In this document: positions 2-15,865 of the stretch, piece by piece
How positions within the stretch are numbered: position 1 is the first letter of the stretch
How the letters are laid out: every line of letters starts with the position of its first letter
DNA from: Verrucomicrobiota bacterium
GTDB lineage: Bacteria; Verrucomicrobiota; Verrucomicrobiia; Limisphaerales; PALSA-1396
Assembly (NCBI GenBank): GCA_016200005.1
Contig: JACQFP010000012.1
Span: 1 to 51,583, forward strand
DNA: 51,583 nt
Direction of reading: 5' to 3'
Position numbers and translations under genes: made by a program
Notes under the pieces: generated by a model
What the model was told of the DNA's origin: nothing
The model's input: only the letters and a program-made list of their open reading frames with translations
Database searches by the model: none

Positions 2-541
2 CTTAATTACGGTGGTGACACCAACGGGCCTGGGGCTGCAAGCAGGACAGATTATTCCGGTGGAGCGAACACAAACTTCTGGGAAGGCCAGTTCCACTGG
101 AACCAGCTTTTTGTAAGCTCGTTCCTCAGTGGCGCCATCACTAATGAGGACGGCAGTCCGCGGGCCGGCAATCCCTTCCACTATGTGGTCACACCGGGCC
201 AGGTCGGGATTCCGATGGACTTTACCATCGCGTTCCGCGAGGCGGGTGTAACCCCTGACCTCTTCATGTTCAGCACGCACACCAATTTGCTGAATGACTA
301 CACGCAGGCTGAATTGGATCAGCAATACCTGAGTCCTCAGCTCACGGCATCCTCCTCCGGGACCAACGTCGTCGTGTCCTGGCCGGTTTCTGCCTCCTGT
401 TACATTCTGGAGTCCACAAGCAGCCTCTCGCCAGTCAGTTGGACCGCGGTCCAGCAGGGTGCCGCTCTGTCGGGGAGCCGCTACAACTTGACCCTCCCGA
501 GCCCGAGCGGCAACCAATTCTTCAGGCTAAGGCAACCCTGA
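2..541 (+). CDS. C-terminal part of a secreted protein (5' end outside window)
   Basis: The frame is open from the first bases of the window to the TGA at 539-541, so this is the 3' end of a longer gene; the first ATG inside the window (185) is probably internal. The last ~70 residues form a small beta-rich module with the pattern NVVVSWP...YILESTSSL...W...YNLTLPSPSGNQFFRLRQP. This module often ends secreted enzymes and adhesins in Verrucomicrobiota; another protein in this window (44962-47001) carries a similar one after its N-terminal domain. The upstream part (NFWEGQFHWNQLF, AGNPFHYVVTPG) is not recognised. Role unknown; export is inferred from the terminal module. A rho-independent terminator follows 40 bp downstream. 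Confidence 0.75.
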   Translation, partial: LNYGGDTNGPGAASRTDYSGGANTNFWEGQFHWNQLFVSSFLSGAITNEDGSPRAGNPFHYVVTPGQVGIPMDFTIAFREAGVTPDLFMFSTHTNLLNDYTQAELDQQYLSPQLTASSSGTNVVVSWPVSASCYILESTSSLSPVSWTAVQQGAALSGSRYNLTLPSPSGNQFFRLRQP

Positions 542-4833: not shown

Positions 4834-5031
4834 ACTCTATCCCAAAAGCACGCCGATGAACGCACGGAATAGTTTCATAGCGATCGAAGTTCAGCGAACG
4901 CTGGCAAAAGCAGGAAGGGTTTTCAATCCTTGCCGCTGCTGCGCGGCCGCTGTTGCAGCGCCGTTTTCCCAAGGAGCGTAATTCACTGTAAGTCATGGTT
5001 CAAAACATTGCGCGTACAAAAGGGGCTGGGT

Positions 5032-6540
5032 ATGATCGCCTCCATGCCTTCCTTGCCGTCAGGTGAGTCGGCCGTGATCCTGGTGATCGCGGTTCCCATA
5101 ATCTACTTCGCAATGGTGTTCCTGGGCCGCCGGTTGAAACGGCGCGATGGCGTGCGCCTCGGTTTGATGTACCAGTTGTTTGCCATCACGCTGGCGTTTT
5201 ACCTGCCCGTCACAGTGCTGGACATGGATTTCCCCAACCGGACGGAATTGGGGTCGGCGGTCATACTGCTGGGCGCCGTGTTCGTGAACGCACTCCTCAA
5301 ACGCTTTCTCTTTGAACTGCATTATCAGGAACGGCGCCAGGCCAGCGTGCCGAAGTTTCTCAGCGAAGTGGTGGCACTGTTGGTCGTCGTGGTGGCGTTC
5401 ATTCTGGTGCTGGCGTTTGGCTATGACGTTCGCATTCCCGGTTTGCTCACCGGCTCGGGCATTGCCGCCGTGATCATCGGCTTGGCGATGCAAGACCTGC
5501 TGGGCAATATCATCGCCGGTTTTGCGATTCATTTTGGAAAACCCTTTCGCGCCGGGGACTGGCTCATCATCGACAACAAGCACGCGGAAGTCGTGGAAGT
5601 CAACTGGCGCTCCACCCGGATGCGCACCAACGACGACGTTTACCTCGACATTCCCAACCGTGAAATTGCGCGCCTGACCATCGTCAATCTGCATTATCCG
5701 ACCCGCCGCCATGCCCTCCGGATCACCGTCGGCGTGGACTACTCCGCGCCGCCCACGCGCGTCAAAGACATCCTGATTCACGCCACCGCCAACGCCGTCG
5801 GTGTGTCGGGTGATCCGCGCATAAAAGTGTTCCTGAAAAACTTTGGCGACTCGGCCGTGGAATACGAAGTCAAATTCTGGGTTGATGACCACGCCATTTA
5901 CAACGAGGTCACCGATGCCATTCGCACCAACATCTGGTACAGCCTGAAACGCCACGGCATCAAGATTCCCTTCCCGATGCGGACGGTGCAGATCGAACGC
6001 TCGGCCCGCTCGCACGAACAGGAAATGCAGAACAACGCCCGCAACATCCTTCGCCAGCAACCGCTCTTCCAATGCCTCGACGATGCCCAACTGGACGCCT
6101 TGCTGCCGCGCGGGCGTTTGGAGCACTTCGGGCGCGGCGAAAAATTAATCCAACAAGGCGAAGACGGCGCGTCAATGTTCATCCTGGTGAATGGCGAGGC
6201 AAATGTCGTCGTGGATCGCGACGGGGACTCTACCCAGGTCGCCCGCCTACGCGCCGGGGATTGCTTTGGCGAGATGTCGCTGCTGACCGGCGAAAAACGC
6301 AGCGCGACCGTGGTTGCGCAAACGGATTGCGAAGTGGTGGAAATCGGCAAGCCCGTTCTGGCCAACAGCCTCAAGCAACAACCGGAGTTGCTCAACAAAC
6401 TCAGCGAACTGCTGGCGCGACGCCAGTTGGAAACCGAAGGCATTCTGGCCGAGAACACTTCCCGGAAAGCCATCGCCGCCAGACAAACGGAATACGCCGT
6501 GACGTTCCTGGATAAATTGCGGACGTTTTTTGAATTGTGA
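5032..6540 (+). CDS. MscS-family mechanosensitive channel fused to a cyclic-nucleotide-binding domain
   Basis: About 502 residues. Membrane helices lie at ~12-30, ~42-60, ~70-85 and ~110-130, followed by the pore helix and MscS beta domain: SGIAAVIIGLAMQDLLGNIIAGFAI, GKPFRAGDWLII and VEVNWRSTRMRTNDDVYLDIPNREI. After the MscS C-domain comes a cNMP-binding jelly roll (QQPLFQCLDDAQLDALL..., FGRGEKLIQQGEDG, GDCFGEMSLLTGEKRSATVVA). The FGEMSLLTG...RSATV stretch is the phosphate-binding cassette, with Glu and Arg in place, so ligand binding is plausible. A frame open from 4930 precedes it, but ATG 5032 is preceded by AAGGGG at good spacing and removes an unlikely N-terminus. Likely an inner-membrane channel gated or tuned by a cyclic nucleotide. 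Confidence 0.9.
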   Translation: MIASMPSLPSGESAVILVIAVPIIYFAMVFLGRRLKRRDGVRLGLMYQLFAITLAFYLPVTVLDMDFPNRTELGSAVILLGAVFVNALLKRFLFELHYQERRQASVPKFLSEVVALLVVVVAFILVLAFGYDVRIPGLLTGSGIAAVIIGLAMQDLLGNIIAGFAIHFGKPFRAGDWLIIDNKHAEVVEVNWRSTRMRTNDDVYLDIPNREIARLTIVNLHYPTRRHALRITVGVDYSAPPTRVKDILIHATANAVGVSGDPRIKVFLKNFGDSAVEYEVKFWVDDHAIYNEVTDAIRTNIWYSLKRHGIKIPFPMRTVQIERSARSHEQEMQNNARNILRQQPLFQCLDDAQLDALLPRGRLEHFGRGEKLIQQGEDGASMFILVNGEANVVVDRDGDSTQVARLRAGDCFGEMSLLTGEKRSATVVAQTDCEVVEIGKPVLANSLKQQPELLNKLSELLARRQLETEGILAENTSRKAIAARQTEYAVTFLDKLRTFFEL

Positions 6541-6947: not shown

Positions 6948-8384
6948 TTATTTAACGATTTCCGCGGATAGTTGGCCCGGCGGACGGACGTCTTTCCCCT
7001 CGCGCTTGGTTTCTGAGTCACCCAGATCGTCGCGGCAATTTTCCAGCAACGCTTCGAGGCGCTTAACAACTTCGGGATGTTGATCGGCTACGTTGGTCGT
7101 TTCGCCGATGTCGATTTCGAGGTCGAACAGTTCCGCGCCGATTTTTTTGGTCGCGTACTTTCCGGGCTGGCCGCCACCACCGGGGGGTTCGGGATGGGTG
7201 TAGTTGTGTGGCGCGTGGAGTTTCCATTTTCCATTTCGCACGGCCTGCAACGCCTTTCCCCAATAGTAGAAGTACGCTTTGTGCGGACTTTTCGCGCCCG
7301 GCTGGCCGGACATCAAGGGCCAGAGGTCCAAGCCGTCGATTTTATGTTTGGGCAGGTCGGCGCCGGCGAGTTTGGCCACTGTTGGCAGAATATCCATCGT
7401 CGCCGCCACCTCATGACAGACGGTGCCCGCCGGGATTTTGCCGGGCCAGCGCATGATGCACGGCTCGCGCAGACCGCCATCGAACGTGGTGCCTTTGCCC
7501 TCGCGCAACGGCAGCGCCGTGCCGGCGTGGTCGCCGTAAAGCAGCCACGGACCGTTGTCGGAAGTGAAGATGACCAGGGTTTGATCGTCGAGACCGTTCT
7601 TCTTCAGCGCGCCAAGGATTTGTCCAACGGACCAATCGATCTCCATGATCACGTCGCCGTAGAGTCCGCGCGGCGATTTACCTTTGAACTTGTTGCTCAC
7701 GTGCAGCGGCACATGCGGCATATTGTGCGCCACGTAGAGGAAGAACGGGCGATGTTTGTTTTGTCTGATGAACTTCACGGCGTGTTCGGTGTACCAGGTC
7801 GTGAGTTGCGTTTGATCAGGCGCCTGCTTCACGGCCTTGTCGCCTTCCATCAACGGCAATGGCGGAAACCGGCTGCCGGCGGTGGGATGGTTCGGCCACA
7901 TGTCGTTGGAGTAGGGCAGGCCGAAGTAATCGTCGAAGCCGTGATGCGTCGGCAGGAATTGCGGCGCGTCGCCGAGATGCCATTTGCCGTAGATGGCGGT
8001 GGCGTAACCGCGCGGTTTGAGGACTTCCGCGATGGTCATCTCGTTGGAATTGATGCCGACCTTCGATCCCGGAGCCAGCGCGCCGAGGATGCTGACGCGA
8101 TTGGGATAACAACCGGTCAGCAGCGCGGCGCGCGAGGCCGAGCAGACCGGCTGACCAACATAAAAATCCGTGAACCGCATCCCTTCCTTCGCCATGCGGT
8201 CGAGATTCGGCGTCTGGATATTGGGCGAACCGAAGCAACCGACATCTTGATAGCCCTGGTCGTCGGTGAAAATGATGACGATGTTCGGCGGGCGCTTTTC
8301 CGCCGCGGACGTGGTTGAAACGATGAAGAACGCCAGAAGAAGTTGGCTAAGGAATCGGGAAAAATTTGGGAATATTCTTTTCAT
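6948..8384 (-). CDS. Secreted arylsulfatase A-type sulfatase
   Basis: About 478 residues with an N-terminal signal peptide ([19 protein letters not shown]). The sulfatase fold starts at [21 protein letters not shown], whose paired Asp residues bind calcium. The activation motif is [13 protein letters not shown]-x-A-x-R, where the Cys becomes formylglycine. Further landmarks are [33 protein letters not shown] and the C-terminal [10 protein letters not shown]...[16 protein letters not shown]. The length is normal for the family. It would hydrolyse sulfate esters in the periplasm or outside, probably on glycans; the substrate cannot be read from the sequence. It runs parallel to a second sulfatase gene upstream, 184 bp away, separated by a long inverted repeat, so the two may be separate transcripts. 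Confidence 0.95.
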
Positions 8385-8430
8385 GAGAAATTATCGGGTT
8401 TGCCAAAAATGATTCAGGAAAAGCAAGCGT

Positions 8431-8507
8431 GGTAGGGCGCGTCACTCCGTGCGCGCCGTCGTTTGCCCACAGTCGATTGCGGCGCGCACGGAGTGACGCG
8501 CCCTACC
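8431..8507. repeat. Long inverted repeat between the two sulfatase genes
   Basis: Arms of 28 bp (8431-8458 beginning GGTAGGGCGCGTCACTCCGT, and 8480-8507) are exact reverse complements around a 21-nt spacer. Any transcript would fold into a very stable stem. From memory of verrucomicrobial sequence, the GTAGGGCGCGTCACTCCGTG core resembles a dispersed, high-copy repeat of this group, but copy number cannot be seen here. It may act as an attenuator or mRNA stabiliser between the sulfatase genes, or simply be a MITE-like insertion. Confidence 0.9.
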
Positions 8508-8568
8508 TCCCAAATCCGGCCATTTCGGGAACGTATTCTGTCAATCACTCTAAATCTCCAATGGTTTT

Positions 8569-10092
8569 TCATTCCGGTACGCCATTCGCGAATTGGTCCT
8601 CGTCTTTAAGTTCCTTCTTCAAACGATACAACTCGGTTTTGAGTTCCTGCACCGTGTCGGCGTAAATCGGGTCGGCATACACACTGTTCATTTCGTGCGG
8701 GTCTTTCGCGAGGTCGAACAACTCCCACTCGTTGATGTTGTTGAAGTAGATCAGTTTGTAACGTTCGGTGCGCACGCCGTAGTGCGGCTGGACGCGGTGA
8801 TCCTGGGGATAATGGTAGTAGCGATAATACATGGACGTCCGCCAGTCTCTCGGCTTTTCGCCGCGCAACCACGGCGTGATGCTGCGGCCTTGAATGTCCG
8901 GCGGAATCGTGACGCCGGCGTATTCGAGAAACGTCGGCGCGAAATCGACGTTGAGAATCATGCGGTCGTTGACGCTGCCTTGCTTGATCTTGCCGGGGTA
9001 ACGAATCAGAAACGGCATCCGCAGCGATTCCTCATACATGAACCGTTTGTCAAACCAGTTGTGGTCGCCAAGAAAAAATCCCTGGTCGGAAGTGTAAATG
9101 ACAATCGTGTTCTCTTTCAGTCCAGCCTTGTCGAGATAATCGAGCAGCCGCCCGACGTTGTCGTCCACGGACGCAATGCAGCGGAGGTAATCCTTGATGT
9201 AACGTTGGTACTTCCATTTCTTGAGGGCGTCGCCCGTCAGTGTTTTCCTTTGGCCGTTGATCGTGACTTCCAGCTCCATATCGACGGTCTGATTCCATTT
9301 GGCGAGTTTAGGGCCTTTGAGGTCGGGTGGCGGTGGCGGATACTTGATGTCGCTGCGCGTGAGATTCCGGTCGATGCGCATCGTCGCTTCGGTTGCCGCG
9401 TCGGAGCGGTGCTTGTAATCGTCGTTGAAAGTTTCGGGTTCGGGAATGTCAACGTCCTCGTACATTTTGGCGTGTTTGGCGTCGGGCTGCCAGGGTCGAT
9501 GCGGCGCCTTGTGATGACACATGAGGAAAAACGGTCTGTTCTTGGGGCGGGTTTTCAGGAAGTCGATCGCCAGGTCGGCGATGAGGTCGCTGACGTAACC
9601 CTGAATGACTTTTTTCTTTCCCATCTCGATCAATTCAGGATTGTGATAACGGCCCTGGCCGGGAAGGATGTTCCAGTAATCGAAACCGGTGGGGTCGCTT
9701 GTGAGATGCCACTTGCCGATCATGCCCGTGTGATAGCCCGCCGCCTGCAACAGCTTGGCGACGGTCGGCTGGCTGCCGTCGAAGCGGTTGAACACCGGCA
9801 CGCCGTTGAGGTGACTATACTTACCCGTAAGAATGGCGGCGCGGCTCGGCGTGCAAATGGAGTTGACGACGAAACAACGCGTAAAGCGCATTCCTTCGTG
9901 CGCGAGGCGGTCGATGTTCGGCGTCTGGTTGATCTTGCTGTCGTAGGCACCGATGGCATGCGCGGCGTGGTCATCCGCCATGATGAAGAGAATGTTGGGG
10001 CGATCATCCGCGGCGTGAGCCAAGCCGCACCCAAGTTCTAAAACAGCCAAGAATAGCAGCGCGTGTCGAAAGTTGAAAAGTCCTGTTCGCAT
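8569..10092 (-). CDS. Secreted sulfatase, N-acetylglucosamine-6-sulfatase-like
   Basis: About 507 residues. Signal peptide: LLFLAVLELGCGLAHAAD. Core motifs are RPNILFIMADDHAAHAIGAY (metal-binding Asp pair), ICTPSRAAILTGKYSHLNGV (C-x-P-x-R, the formylglycine site), MIGKWHL, FFLMCHHKAPHRPWQP, VIYTSDQGFFLGDHNWFDKRF and GRSITPWLRGE. A C-terminal RTERYKLIYF...WELFDLAKDPHEMNSVY segment of the DUF4976 type ends it. CTPSR with KxPHRPW and DQGFFLGDH is the pattern of the GlcNAc-6-sulfatase/heparan-type branch, so a sulfated amino sugar is a reasonable but unproven substrate. It needs a formylglycine-generating enzyme; the SUMF1-like protein at 1010-2296 is a poor candidate because it lacks one active-site Cys. 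Confidence 0.95.
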   Translation of the reverse strand: MRTGLFNFRHALLFLAVLELGCGLAHAADDRPNILFIMADDHAAHAIGAYDSKINQTPNIDRLAHEGMRFTRCFVVNSICTPSRAAILTGKYSHLNGVPVFNRFDGSQPTVAKLLQAAGYHTGMIGKWHLTSDPTGFDYWNILPGQGRYHNPELIEMGKKKVIQGYVSDLIADLAIDFLKTRPKNRPFFLMCHHKAPHRPWQPDAKHAKMYEDVDIPEPETFNDDYKHRSDAATEATMRIDRNLTRSDIKYPPPPPDLKGPKLAKWNQTVDMELEVTINGQRKTLTGDALKKWKYQRYIKDYLRCIASVDDNVGRLLDYLDKAGLKENTIVIYTSDQGFFLGDHNWFDKRFMYEESLRMPFLIRYPGKIKQGSVNDRMILNVDFAPTFLEYAGVTIPPDIQGRSITPWLRGEKPRDWRTSMYYRYYHYPQDHRVQPHYGVRTERYKLIYFNNINEWELFDLAKDPHEMNSVYADPIYADTVQELKTELYRLKKELKDEDQFANGVPE

Positions 10093-12797: not shown

Positions 12798-14171
12798 CTA
12801 CTGCAATTTAACTGGCATCTGGAAGACAAAAGCATACAGCCGCGACAGCGTCGCGCCGGTGTGTTGCGCGCGCACATCCGAGCCAAATTGGAACGTCGCC
12901 GCGGCATCGAATTTTTGGAACATCATGCAGTAGGTGCTGTTCGCCATGACGCCCAGCAACTCGCCAGTTTTGCTGAACACCAGGTCGCCGCGCGAGGGAT
13001 TGAATTTGCCGAACAGGCCCTTGAGGAAACTGTTGTCCAATTTCACGTAGCCCGGCGTGGACAGATCGATCTGGAACTTGCATTCGCCGTAATAGCCTTC
13101 TCCGGCGCCGACCAGCACCGCATCCTGGAACTTGAACGGGTCGGACGAGATGCGATAAACCTTGCCGCCCAGTTGACGGGCCTCCGTCGGGGTGACCGGT
13201 ATCAAGAGCACGCGCGGGTCAGGCCAGCCGAAGGACAGGGAACGGATCGGCAACACCGTGCTGTTGCGGCTCAACGATCCCGTGAGTCCTTCCCAATCCG
13301 TGCCCGGAACCGCCAAGGTCAGCGGCGTGTCTTGCACGTGGCACAACGCGAACGTATTGGTGCCATCGGTGACCAGCACGGTTTGCGTTTCCTTGCGCTT
13401 CGTGGATTCACCGAACACGCCGGGTCGGGAAGCGTTGAACTCGGCTTTCACCCGGTTGGTCAGAAAGTCGCTGAAAATGGTGTTCGGGGCCAGTGGACGA
13501 TTCTCCCGGATTTCCTGGGTCAACTCGCCAGATTTTGCGGCCAGGGTTTTGACGCCCTCGGCCAGTTTGGTTTTTTCTTCGCGCTCGATCTTCACTTGTT
13601 CCTGCATTCGGGCAGCTTGTTCGGTGGCATGACGTTTCTCCACTTCGGCCACCTGGAGCTGGCCGGCCAGACGTTGTCTTTCTGCGAGACCAACCTGGTT
13701 GCTCTTGGATAATTGCGCCATTTGTTGCTCCAGAGCGGCGGCTTGTTCCTTCTGCTTTCGCAATTCAGCTTCCATCGCGGCGAGTTTTTCCTTCGAGATC
13801 AAGGCATCGCTGGAGCTGGCCTGCACTTGGCGGGTCAGGGATTGGATATTGGTCTGGGCCGCGGCAAACTGCTGCTCCTTCGCTTGAAGTTGTTGCTGGA
13901 AAGTCTGCACCTGTTTCTCGCGCTCGCCGACCGTTTCGCGGGTCTGTTTGAGTTCGCCCAGCAACAGATCGCGCTCCTTGCGCTCCGCATCCAGCGCGAG
14001 TCGCATGACGGCAGCGAGGTCTTTCCCGCTGTCCACTTGATTGGTCGCGATGTCCACCTTGACCTGCGGCGCCGCGCCCTCCTCGGCCACCTTGTTGATA
14101 TCGACGGTGGAAAACGCCAGCAGGCTCACCAGCAGGAAATCGCAAATGACGATCAGAATGCTGCGGTTCAT
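12798..14171 (-). CDS. Single-TM coiled-coil protein with TM aspartate, partner of MotA/ExbB-like protein
   Basis: About 457 residues. Residues 3-20 (RSILIVICDFLLVSLLAFST) are one membrane helix with an Asp at position 11, the arrangement of the proton-carrying Asp in MotB/ExbD-type stator proteins. Residues ~45-215 are a long coiled coil (RETVGEREKQVQTFQQQLQA, KEKLAAMEAELRKQKEQAAA). The last ~220 residues are a globular domain; TQTVLVTDGTNTFALCHV and RGDLVFSKTGELLGVM recall a trypsin-like fold without its catalytic Ser/His, which is only a resemblance. No OmpA-type peptidoglycan-binding domain is seen. The ATG overlaps the stop of the upstream gene (ATGA, 14168-14171), so the two are co-translated. 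Inferred role: the TM-Asp half of an ion-driven complex with a periplasmic arm. Confidence 0.75.
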   Translation of the reverse strand: MNRSILIVICDFLLVSLLAFSTVDINKVAEEGAAPQVKVDIATNQVDSGKDLAAVMRLALDAERKERDLLLGELKQTRETVGEREKQVQTFQQQLQAKEQQFAAAQTNIQSLTRQVQASSSDALISKEKLAAMEAELRKQKEQAAALEQQMAQLSKSNQVGLAERQRLAGQLQVAEVEKRHATEQAARMQEQVKIEREEKTKLAEGVKTLAAKSGELTQEIRENRPLAPNTIFSDFLTNRVKAEFNASRPGVFGESTKRKETQTVLVTDGTNTFALCHVQDTPLTLAVPGTDWEGLTGSLSRNSTVLPIRSLSFGWPDPRVLLIPVTPTEARQLGGKVYRISSDPFKFQDAVLVGAGEGYYGECKFQIDLSTPGYVKLDNSFLKGLFGKFNPSRGDLVFSKTGELLGVMANSTYCMMFQKFDAAATFQFGSDVRAQHTGATLSRLYAFVFQMPVKLQ

Positions 14172-15865
14172 GACATGGTAGTGAACGTGGGTTCGGCGGC
14201 CGGCGCCATGCGCGCAGTGGTCGCGGCGTCAGCTTCGAGCAACAATTTCCGGCGCAACGGGCGCAAATTGAAAATCTTGAACACCGACACGAAGATGATG
14301 CCGAACGACGTGGATGAGTAAGCGGCCATCAAGCTCGGCTTGATGACGCCCATCGACACCAGGATCAGCGAGATGATCGTGCCGGCGAAGCCCAGATAGA
14401 GGCCAGCGTCGAACAAGTGGTCTTCATTTTCGAGCAGCTTGAGCTTGAGCCGAGGTGTTATGTTCTGCCGGCGGATTTCCGCCAGCTTGACGAGGCAGGC
14501 CGTGTAGATCAGCGCCTGCAGCACGAAGAACAACAGCAAGGTTAACAGACTTAGTTGGTTCATAATCGATGCATGAGCGCCGGTGTTTCCGACAGGGACC
14601 ACGCTGCCCACCGTGGGCAGGCGCAGTCGAAAGGGGAACTCCACTTTCTGACTTTCCTGAGCGAGAAACGGCTCGCTCAAGAGCAGCACAACAAGCAGAA
14701 ACCCCAGCGCAAATAAACTTTCGCGGGCCAGATGAAACCCGCCCACCTGCAGCGGTCGCTCCAAAGCAGACACTGCCGGTCTCGCAAAATGCATGGCCGC
14801 AGCCAGCAGAAAACCGCCGATCAGGTATAAACTCCATTTCAAAGTCAGCGCAAGCCACGGTTTGCGCAAGGAATAATCTGTGGCAAAGTTAAAAAATGCG
14901 GACGGCGGAGCAAGTGCCGGCACGCGCTCGTGAAAGCTCGAAGCATACAGTTGTTGTTTGCGCCGCAACAGTTCATTCACTCCACCCTCGCCAAACCGGA
15001 GACTCGCGCCGAGGTCCTTCAGTCCGCTCTGACTGAACTGCATCAGGTATTTTGCCACGTCCGCCGGTTTGCCGGAGAGTTGCACGGCAGAGAAAAGCAC
15101 GGGCAGTTGTGCGTCGGCTTTGCGGACATGATTGGCCAGCAGACGCAGCGTCTCGGCATCTTCAATCTTGCCGACGAATGCAGCGAGTTGACCCAAGTTA
15201 AATCGTTGACCGAGCGACATCAAATCCATCAGCACTTGTTCGAGCGGTTGCGAACTTCCACCACGATTCGCTTCCGCGGCCAGCGCCAACACGGCGTTGC
15301 TCAACGCCGGCGTCAAGCGACCTTCCTCCACCAGAAGCCCGCCGACCGAGAGCGCCGCATCGAAAGCCTGACCTGAAGCTGACTGCGAGGGTGGGAACAG
15401 AATCGTATTAGTCAACGCGCGGCAGCGCAGCAACTCTTGCACGCCGGGACGCGACGAAGCCTTCAACAGTTCGAGGACTTTGCCCCGGTTTTCTTGTCGA
15501 ATAATTAATTCGATGAACGGCAGCGGTCCTACGTTCTTTCCGAACAGCGCTGCAACGCGAGGTTCGGGAATTCCCCAAACCTGCAAGTTCGGATTCTGTT
15601 TCGCCAGGTTCGTCACAGCCAGGCCGAGTTTCTCGCGATCGGAAATTTCCTCCTTCTGTGCCGTCTGCAACAGCAACTCGGCTGCTCCCAGATTTTTCTC
15701 ATTCACCAACGCCAATCCACGCTCGACCAAAGTAGTGGTGTTCCAGCCGGCCTTTTGGACGACGCTGGCATCCACGGCCCGCAGATGCATCGGCACCAGC
15801 AAGCCGCCGACCAACATCCCCAGGCCGAGGACGGCGCACAACAGAAACAATAGCCAACGCTTCAT
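14168..15865 (-). CDS. MotA/TolQ/ExbB-like multi-TM membrane protein
   Basis: About 565 residues from ATG 15865 (MKRWLLFLLCAVLGLGMLVG); a frame to 15910 is open but adds an unlikely leader. TM helices: 5-26, ~337-358, ~383-402, ~436-459, then a pair at ~488-508 and 515-533. Residues ~30-330 form a large helical, extracytoplasmic domain. The last pair, DAGLYLGFAGTIISLILVSM then SLMAAYSSTSFGIIFVSVFK, has the GLxGTxxxL...ATAxGL layout of the MotA/TolQ/ExbB channel core and is followed by a basic amphipathic tail. With the next gene's TM aspartate it looks like a stator pair. No tonB, tol, gld, flagellar or Zorya C/D genes are nearby. This call rests on motif pattern, not on overall homology. Confidence 0.65.
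   Translation of the reverse strand: MKRWLLFLLCAVLGLGMLVGGLLVPMHLRAVDASVVQKAGWNTTTLVERGLALVNEKNLGAAELLLQTAQKEEISDREKLGLAVTNLAKQNPNLQVWGIPEPRVAALFGKNVGPLPFIELIIRQENRGKVLELLKASSRPGVQELLRCRALTNTILFPPSQSASGQAFDAALSVGGLLVEEGRLTPALSNAVLALAAEANRGGSSQPLEQVLMDLMSLGQRFNLGQLAAFVGKIEDAETLRLLANHVRKADAQLPVLFSAVQLSGKPADVAKYLMQFSQSGLKDLGASLRFGEGGVNELLRRKQQLYASSFHERVPALAPPSAFFNFATDYSLRKPWLALTLKWSLYLIGGFLLAAAMHFARPAVSALERPLQVGGFHLARESLFALGFLLVVLLLSEPFLAQESQKVEFPFRLRLPTVGSVVPVGNTGAHASIMNQLSLLTLLLFFVLQALIYTACLVKLAEIRRQNITPRLKLKLLENEDHLFDAGLYLGFAGTIISLILVSMGVIKPSLMAAYSSTSFGIIFVSVFKIFNLRPLRRKLLLEADAATTARMAPAAEPTFTTMS

Follow-up and report, generated by a model that had tools for sequence, protein, structure and literature searches.

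We analysed a stretch of 51,583 nucleotides (hereafter the window), positions 1 to 51,583 of contig JACQFP010000012.1 (C12 in our numbering), from the 6.54-Mb genome of a Verrucomicrobiota bacterium of the order Limisphaerales (GCA_016200005.1). Two adjoining genes on its minus strand are the subject of this report. The first, P1, encodes an A-subunit-like membrane protein of 565 amino acids (14168..15865; a longer open reading frame, to 15910, is possible). The second, P2, encodes a B-subunit-like protein of 457 amino acids (12798..14171), for which the open reading frame and the predicted structure give a transmembrane (TM) helix with an aspartate at position 11 (Asp11), a coiled coil, and a domain of the HtrA fold. 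The first-pass annotation had described the two as translationally coupled, and the P1 stop codon does overlap the P2 start codon in a shared ATGA at 14168..14171 (minus strand). The same spacing, a gap of -4, is seen in 23 of 61 and in 58 of 75 homologous pairs.

Neither protein is filed as a member of a known family: Pfam, NCBIfam, and PADLOC yielded a usable assignment for neither. Because P1 has no match to PF01618, it is not filed as a member of MotA/TolQ/ExbB, and NCBIfam and PADLOC returned nothing for it, the Zorya (ZorA/ZorB) models of PADLOC included. P2 had weak NCBIfam and PADLOC matches, mostly within the coiled-coil stretch; the 18 from PADLOC were to JetC, DruC, LmuB, and PDC-S66, all in or around that stretch, and Zorya was absent among them. 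In the host genome, a P1 core profile retrieves P1 alone and a P2 profile retrieves P2 alone, with no sign of a paralogue of either. Viral contigs searched with P2 and with the P1 core gave no relative. The genome also holds four ordinary MotA_ExbB (PF01618) genes, all on other contigs and none within the window.

The P1-P2 pair is conserved in Verrucomicrobiota. The genome-set searches for P1 covered this phylum, in sets that overlap, and found matches in 98 of 288 genomes of the phylum, 18 of 58 relatives, 114 of 293 genomes of the order, and 105 of 384 genomes of the class. Loci were collected as a first set of 61, 18 from relatives, 80 from a contig scan (the best 80 of 407 P1 relatives), and 132 further ones. 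P2 lies downstream of P1, on the same strand and within 700 bases, in all 61 loci of the first set, in 18 of 18 loci from relatives (two of which, L110 and L112, are one genome), and in 127 of the 132 further loci. A script found P2 after P1 in 75 of the 80 contig-scan loci, and in two others that it missed (L157 and L159, with the start MSR) both the gene and D at position 11 were seen by eye; also outside the 75 are L126 and L135, at contig ends, and L178, where P1 is in fragments. Outside the 127 are L244, whose P1 is cut at a contig end and has its remainder beside P2, again with the Asp, on another contig of the same genome (G347), and L325, L332, L333, and L343, where P2 is not adjacent. 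The latter are four genomes of two genera with a full-length, open P1 followed by another gene; their P2 genes stand at separate loci (L356-L359) with the Asp kept, and P2 is present even where it is unlinked. Outside the window's class, most P1 matches are short and cover only about residues 385-550, with 171-287 amino acids in the 26 short forms fetched.

In the contig scan, the nearest named relatives are genomes of Limisphaerales/Pedosphaera. Among the best 80 of 407, one (L126) bears an Acidobacteria label and the rest have verrucomicrobial names or no phylum label. The P1 of L126 is 63% identical to that of the window, and its contig is probably verrucomicrobial. At L178:10385-13008, P1 is fragmented, P2 was not found, and a sulfatase-like open reading frame comes next; this locus may be decaying or mis-assembled.

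P2 was modeled with AlphaFold2 (AF2) from 71 sequences. The model has one TM helix (residues 3-22; 14106..14165, minus strand, as are all P1 and P2 features below), which holds Asp11 (codon at 14139..14141). Aspartate stands at this position in 230 of 230 non-redundant pairs, that is, pairs with distinct P1 tails. By locus set, it was found in 61 of 61 members of the first set, where the search pattern permitted D, E, or N, in all 75 contig-scan loci that the script paired, and in 127 of 127 extra loci for which the Asp column was masked in the search model. The flanking positions are less constant (C makes up 87% at position 10, the rest being V, I, L, and others; I makes up 64% at position 9), and Asp11 is the sole fully invariant residue of the P2 TM helix. 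The aspartate on which the idea of an ion-driven pair had first been built is therefore not lost in homologues, and the possibility that it is incidental was rejected since every P2 whose N-terminus was read has it.

Beyond the membrane, residues 23-52 of P2 are modeled with a predicted local distance difference test score (pLDDT) below 50. They lead into a single continuous helix of 172 residues (52-223; 13503..14018), a predicted coiled coil of moderate confidence with pLDDT of about 54-79 by ten-residue block. NCBIfam and PDB sequence searches gave coiled-coil-type matches here, the 60 listed from the PDB being mostly coiled coils. Residues 225-457 (12801..13499) are predicted to form a trypsin/HtrA-fold domain with putative catalytic residues H278, D318, and S393, and the beta domain within it (241-428) has pLDDT mostly above 90. 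Foldseek matched this tip to HtrA/DegP-type proteases (best expectation value (E) 2.6e-6, prob 1.00, 44 matches at E<=0.001), and VIA-align gave Z of 10.3-11.5 over 153-179 residues among the 50 matches listed. The single Asp-bearing helix, the long coiled coil, and the trypsin-like fold claimed for P2 from the letters alone thus all reappear in the AF2 and Foldseek predictions.

The AF2 model of P1 (73 sequences; pLDDT 86.4, predicted template modeling score 0.79) contains helices of TM length at residues 2-23, 336-361, 377-397, 437-466, and 487-504, and a 42-residue helix at 512-553. Between the first two, residues 33-334 (14864..15769) are predicted to form the helical extracytoplasmic domain of about 300 residues that the first-pass annotation had proposed; it falls outside the match to the short P1 forms. 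Conservation centers on the C-terminal TM hairpin, with the motif GxxGT...AxxS(T/N)xxG. TM5 (487-504; 14354..14407) carries G492, G495, and T496, and TM6 with its cytoplasmic extension (helix 512-553; 14207..14332) carries A515-Y516-x-S518-T519-x-x-G522-I523. Three Thr/Ser/Asn positions are near-invariant over 230 sequences: residue 496 is polar in 229 (T in 215), residue 518 in 228 (S in 226), and residue 519 in 229 (T in 129). In TM4 (437-466; 14468..14557), Gln450 is Q in 153 of 153 and in 225 of 230 sequences, and the same 153 sequences show little or no variation at Q450, G492, Y490, Y516, and G522. At residue 460, where TM4 reaches the cytoplasm, 202 of 230 sequences carry a basic residue and 19 of 153 carry V. 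Judged by sequence, TM4 and TM6 are each followed by positive charges, as suits an end in the cytoplasm, which would give the last three helices of P1 the in/out order of ExbB TM1-3. No conserved basic residue was found in TM5 (487-504) or TM6 (511-529), where at most 28 of 230 sequences are basic at any site; a salt bridge from Asp11 to a conserved basic residue in these core helices was rejected for that reason.

A separate family branch is formed by L066-L068, with divergent P1 forms of about 560-600 amino acids in which LT replaces GT at 495-496. The P2 N-termini of these loci read MRPSLLVIIMDF or MRPALLVIIMDF.

The layout of the last two P1 helices had been likened to the MotA/TolQ/ExbB core. 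We see that layout, and a pattern common to P1 and ExbB occurs beyond chance: it is present in 214 of 230 P1 tails, 26 of 30 ExbB proteins, and 2 of 5200 other open reading frames (2 of 749 membrane-like ones), for a pattern devised after both families had been seen and an ExbB set itself preselected by a GxxGT-type motif. Both background matches are P1 homologues (L135 and a fragment at L178). The comparison set consisted of 30 verrucomicrobial ExbB-like proteins, 3 of 33 loci having been dropped because they lack the motif. In hhalign, all four P1 profiles that were tried align the same hairpin to ExbB in the same register, and the profile of the hairpin (72 columns, 230 sequences) does so with P=0.0017 and none of 200 shuffles as high. 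The control scores against ExbB were 22.9 for this hairpin, 21.1 for a 73-sequence hairpin, and 21.2, on six columns only, for the P1 window 430-501, which ends in TM5 and was one of 11 P1 windows scored. None of the 35 decoy windows, which were drawn from three other membrane families, scored above 14.1, and reversed ExbB gave 13.0. ExbB has conserved hydroxyls on both pore helices (T148 and T181), and conserved hydroxyl residues are likewise found on both pore-type helices of P1, at 496, 518, and 519. A remote relation between the P1 hairpin and ExbB is probable from these alignments. The structural match to MotA/ExbB that the first-pass annotation had set as a check was missing from the whole-chain fold matches listed, a listing that rules out no such relation, and Pfam gave no MotA_ExbB match for P1.

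Mean-field couplings were computed from 230 pairs (effective number 74) for P1 436-544 and P2 1-24, with columns at least 5 apart. The pairs A527-B15, A493-B14, and A512-B18 (A, P1; B, P2) take ranks 1, 2, and 4 when all such column pairs are counted. Among pairs that join the two proteins, 33 of the top 40 fall in TM5/TM6 compared to 24.8 expected (p=0.004; p=0.011-0.027 in the other three settings). TM4 is the most variable P1 helix, and variability alone would favor TM4. For the top 10 couplings of the first setting, an antiparallel placement fits better (p=0.017), and the partners of the top pair, A527-B15, are one third of the membrane apart in depth. Over settings and list lengths the agreement in depth was inconsistent (p from 0.002 to 0.58). 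The couplings lend modest support to a P2 helix that packs against P1 TM5/TM6.

We lean toward the view that P1 and P2 are a stator-like complex, highly divergent and driven by ions, whose mode of action resembles that of the MotAB/ExbBD/TolQR class, the motors behind bacterial flagella and uptake at the outer membrane. This view draws on the conservation, the pairing, the predicted fold of the tip, and the match in motif and register. The oligomeric state, ion flow, force, and target of the complex, as laid out here, are what we infer. P1 and P2 would assemble in the inner membrane, with P1 as a multimeric A subunit forming a ring and P2 as the Asp-bearing B subunit or axle, its TM helix set against TM5/TM6. 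TM4-TM5-TM6 of P1 would correspond to ExbB TM1-TM2-TM3, with the long TM6 continuing into the cytoplasm. Asp11 would sit beside a Thr/Ser/Asn ring made by P1 residues 496, 518, and 519, and a proton or other cation on it would make P1 move around P2. At 0.15 nm per residue, the 172-residue coiled coil would span about 26 nm, and it may then serve as an arm or shaft that carries the HtrA-fold tip toward the peptidoglycan or the outer membrane.

Several results weigh against a stator. Pfam reported no MotA_ExbB match for P1 (0 families at E<=10), PF01618 was absent among the 25 listed of 70 Pfam families for 53 P1 homologues, and a PDB sequence search with the P1 profile had no match. Further PDB sequence searches had no relevant match either. 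Whole-chain fold searches of P1 with Foldseek and VIA-align placed no MotA, ExbB, or TolQ among the matches listed, which were unrelated transporters and all-alpha proteins; the best VIA Z, 8.1 to NCX_Mj, may reflect a common helical arrangement according to the tool's own note. The hairpin profile was the fourth variant tried, and the three broader P1 profiles were weak against ExbB (P=0.047, 0.069, and 0.017; among 200 shuffles, 36 were as high as the second of these and 4 as high as the third). A soluble P1 window (180-251) was the next-best window, scoring 17.6 (P=0.017). The P2 TM helix aligned with 14 ExbD-like proteins over one column, with 118 of 200 shuffles as high. The cytoplasmic TM4-TM5 loop of P1 is only about 20 residues long. 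In the top 80 couplings, the p-value for the TM5/TM6 excess ranged from 0.004 to 0.12 across settings, the value of 0.12 occurring at one of them, and these tests treat pairs as independent while shared ancestry can inflate the scores. The agreement in membrane depth at the first setting was weak (p=0.52, 0.09, 0.02, and 0.06 for the top 10, 20, 40, and 80). Finally, the Pfam scan of 10 window proteins, a part of the window's genes, revealed no partner that would transduce force.

On one alternative reading, P1 would be unrelated to MotA/ExbB, its small-residue motifs being convergent packing motifs and its role that of a membrane protein dedicated to chaperoning or regulating P2. Searches of Pfam, NCBIfam, PADLOC, PDB sequences, and whole-chain folds gave P1 no relevant match, and most profile variants were weak. 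Yet the in-register hairpin match has shuffle, decoy, and reversal controls behind it, the couplings concentrate in TM5/TM6, and the pair shares with stators the order of its subunits, its predicted topology, and an Asp in the TM helix that does not vary. We consider an unrelated P1 very unlikely on these grounds. Another explanation keeps the obligate membrane complex and gives Asp11 a role in assembly or gating with no ion-driven motion: the pair would be a DegS-like envelope sensor or scaffold that places an HtrA-like protease or pseudoprotease and signals inward. The HtrA/DegS fold of the P2 tip suits this explanation, as does the finding that none of the 10 window proteins scanned is of TonB/TolA type. 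So does a protein of 768-950 amino acids encoded after P2 at 14 of the 26 short-form loci (L069-L076, L079, L080, L085, L087, L089, and L094); the four that were scanned have a protein kinase and an FGE-sulfatase-like domain, and this large protein is a possible regulator of the pair. A sensor accounts less well for an aspartate that is the only fully invariant residue of its helix and has no conserved basic partner in TM5/TM6. The site that probably faces it is a Thr/Ser/Asn ring as in stators, and the hairpin of P1 is ExbB-like. We regard a sensor or scaffold as unlikely, though with more to be said for it than for an unrelated P1, and continue to favor the stator-like complex.

The first-pass annotation had called the P2 domain trypsin-fold-like and catalytically dead-looking. 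The fold is predicted, as described above; the loss of catalysis is not established, and the P2 of the window keeps all of the putative H278, D318, and S393. These residues would be the counterparts of the trypsin triad, mapped via motifs and not by structural superposition. Of 71 close P2 proteins 60 have all three, as do 14 of 29 in a broader set, where the triad is incomplete mainly because S393 is replaced. In other P2 proteins this serine is K, G, R, T, N, or V, and there is no GxSGG, whereas D318, G395, and G407 are nearly invariant. On this pattern of conservation, the tip may be an active protease in the window's clade and has probably lost that activity in other clades. A bolder form of the stator reading would combine these features. 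The pair would be a stator branch specific, as far as seen, to Verrucomicrobiota, where a flow of ions would drive a coiled-coil shaft whose HtrA-fold tip keeps its catalytic residues in some clades, giving a protease driven by the membrane potential or an envelope arm that grasps peptides. We offer this as a speculation that is rather unlikely to hold in full.

Among the closest known systems are ExbB-ExbD and TolQ-TolR (Pfam MotA_ExbB and ExbD). In ExbBD and TolQR the A gene precedes the B gene. P1 and P2 have this A-then-B order, the hairpin GxxGT...AxxxTxxG in register, one TM helix at the N-terminus of P2 whose Asp never varies, and hydroxyls on both pore-type helices; their gene order and predicted topology match those of known A/B stator pairs. 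P1 differs from ExbB/TolQ in having no PF01618 match, a cytoplasmic loop of some 20 residues, the helical insertion of about 300 residues, and extra TM helices. P2 differs from ExbD/TolR/MotB in a tip that is HtrA-fold, not OmpA-like or ExbD/TolR-type, and in having no ExbD profile match. The fold of the tip and the putative H278, D318, and S393 of the window protein recall HtrA/DegS, from which P2 is set apart by the unconserved Ser393, the lack of GxSGG, the Asp-bearing TM helix, and the coiled coil.

GldL-GldM, of the gliding/type IX secretion machinery, is described as a 5:2 motor with no obvious sequence homology to MotAB and a long periplasmic shaft (PMC9389320). Set beside P1-P2 by description, it offers a precedent for a motor that is unlike MotAB in sequence and has a long shaft. 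According to the same account, GldM has four periplasmic domains and an 18 nm shaft (PMC9389320), whereas a coiled coil and a trypsin fold are predicted for P2. TPH-vWA proteins fuse a TM-Asp helix to a new periplasmic domain, are paired with a TolQ-like gene, and occur also in Verrucomicrobia (PMC12204202), a precedent for a B subunit with a new tip. Their domain is vWA, mostly in heterologous pairs, and their TolQ is recognizable (PMC12204202); here a single B protein carries a trypsin fold, and its A subunit is missed by family models. Passages of PMC12505986 and PMC12204202 do not mention the pair. No description of it was found, by title or start of abstract, among the papers listed by searches of the open PMC library, a scope that has preprints and most subscription papers outside it.

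If the pair is an ion-driven stator, then family models and sequence searches have overlooked a kind that is spread through the Verrucomicrobiota. Ordinary ExbB-type genes coexist with it, PF01618 being present in 59 of 59 sampled genomes. It would add a new B-subunit design, with an HtrA-fold tip, and a small A subunit (171-287 amino acids in the 26 short forms), and such additions would bear on how these motors arose. If it is instead a sensor and no motor, it is still a conserved, unnamed envelope system, linked to a kinase gene in some lineages. Verrucomicrobiota have few experimental models.

The gene neighborhood was compared for 107 full-length loci within 9 kb, with family names taken from one scanned member each. 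PhoH-PIN genes were found at 29 loci, sulfatases at 25 (the window included), peptide deformylase at 22, and cobalamin adenosyltransferase at 19 (the last two on the opposite strand), along with smaller groups. Naming a function from a conserved operon was rejected because every neighbor is confined to a minority of loci and no neighbor points to an envelope machine. In agreement with what had been noted from the letters, the Pfam scan of 10 window proteins turned up no TonB, Tol, or flagellar partner. The genes around the pair encode sulfatases, a PQQ-propeller protein, and a laminin-G/Ig protein. Two adjoining sulfatase genes lie at window positions 6948-10092 (minus strand), and an MscS-type channel fused to a cyclic-nucleotide-binding domain is encoded at 4930-6540 (plus strand). 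Further downstream in 10 short-form loci, there is an ABC-F-type ATPase (one member scanned).

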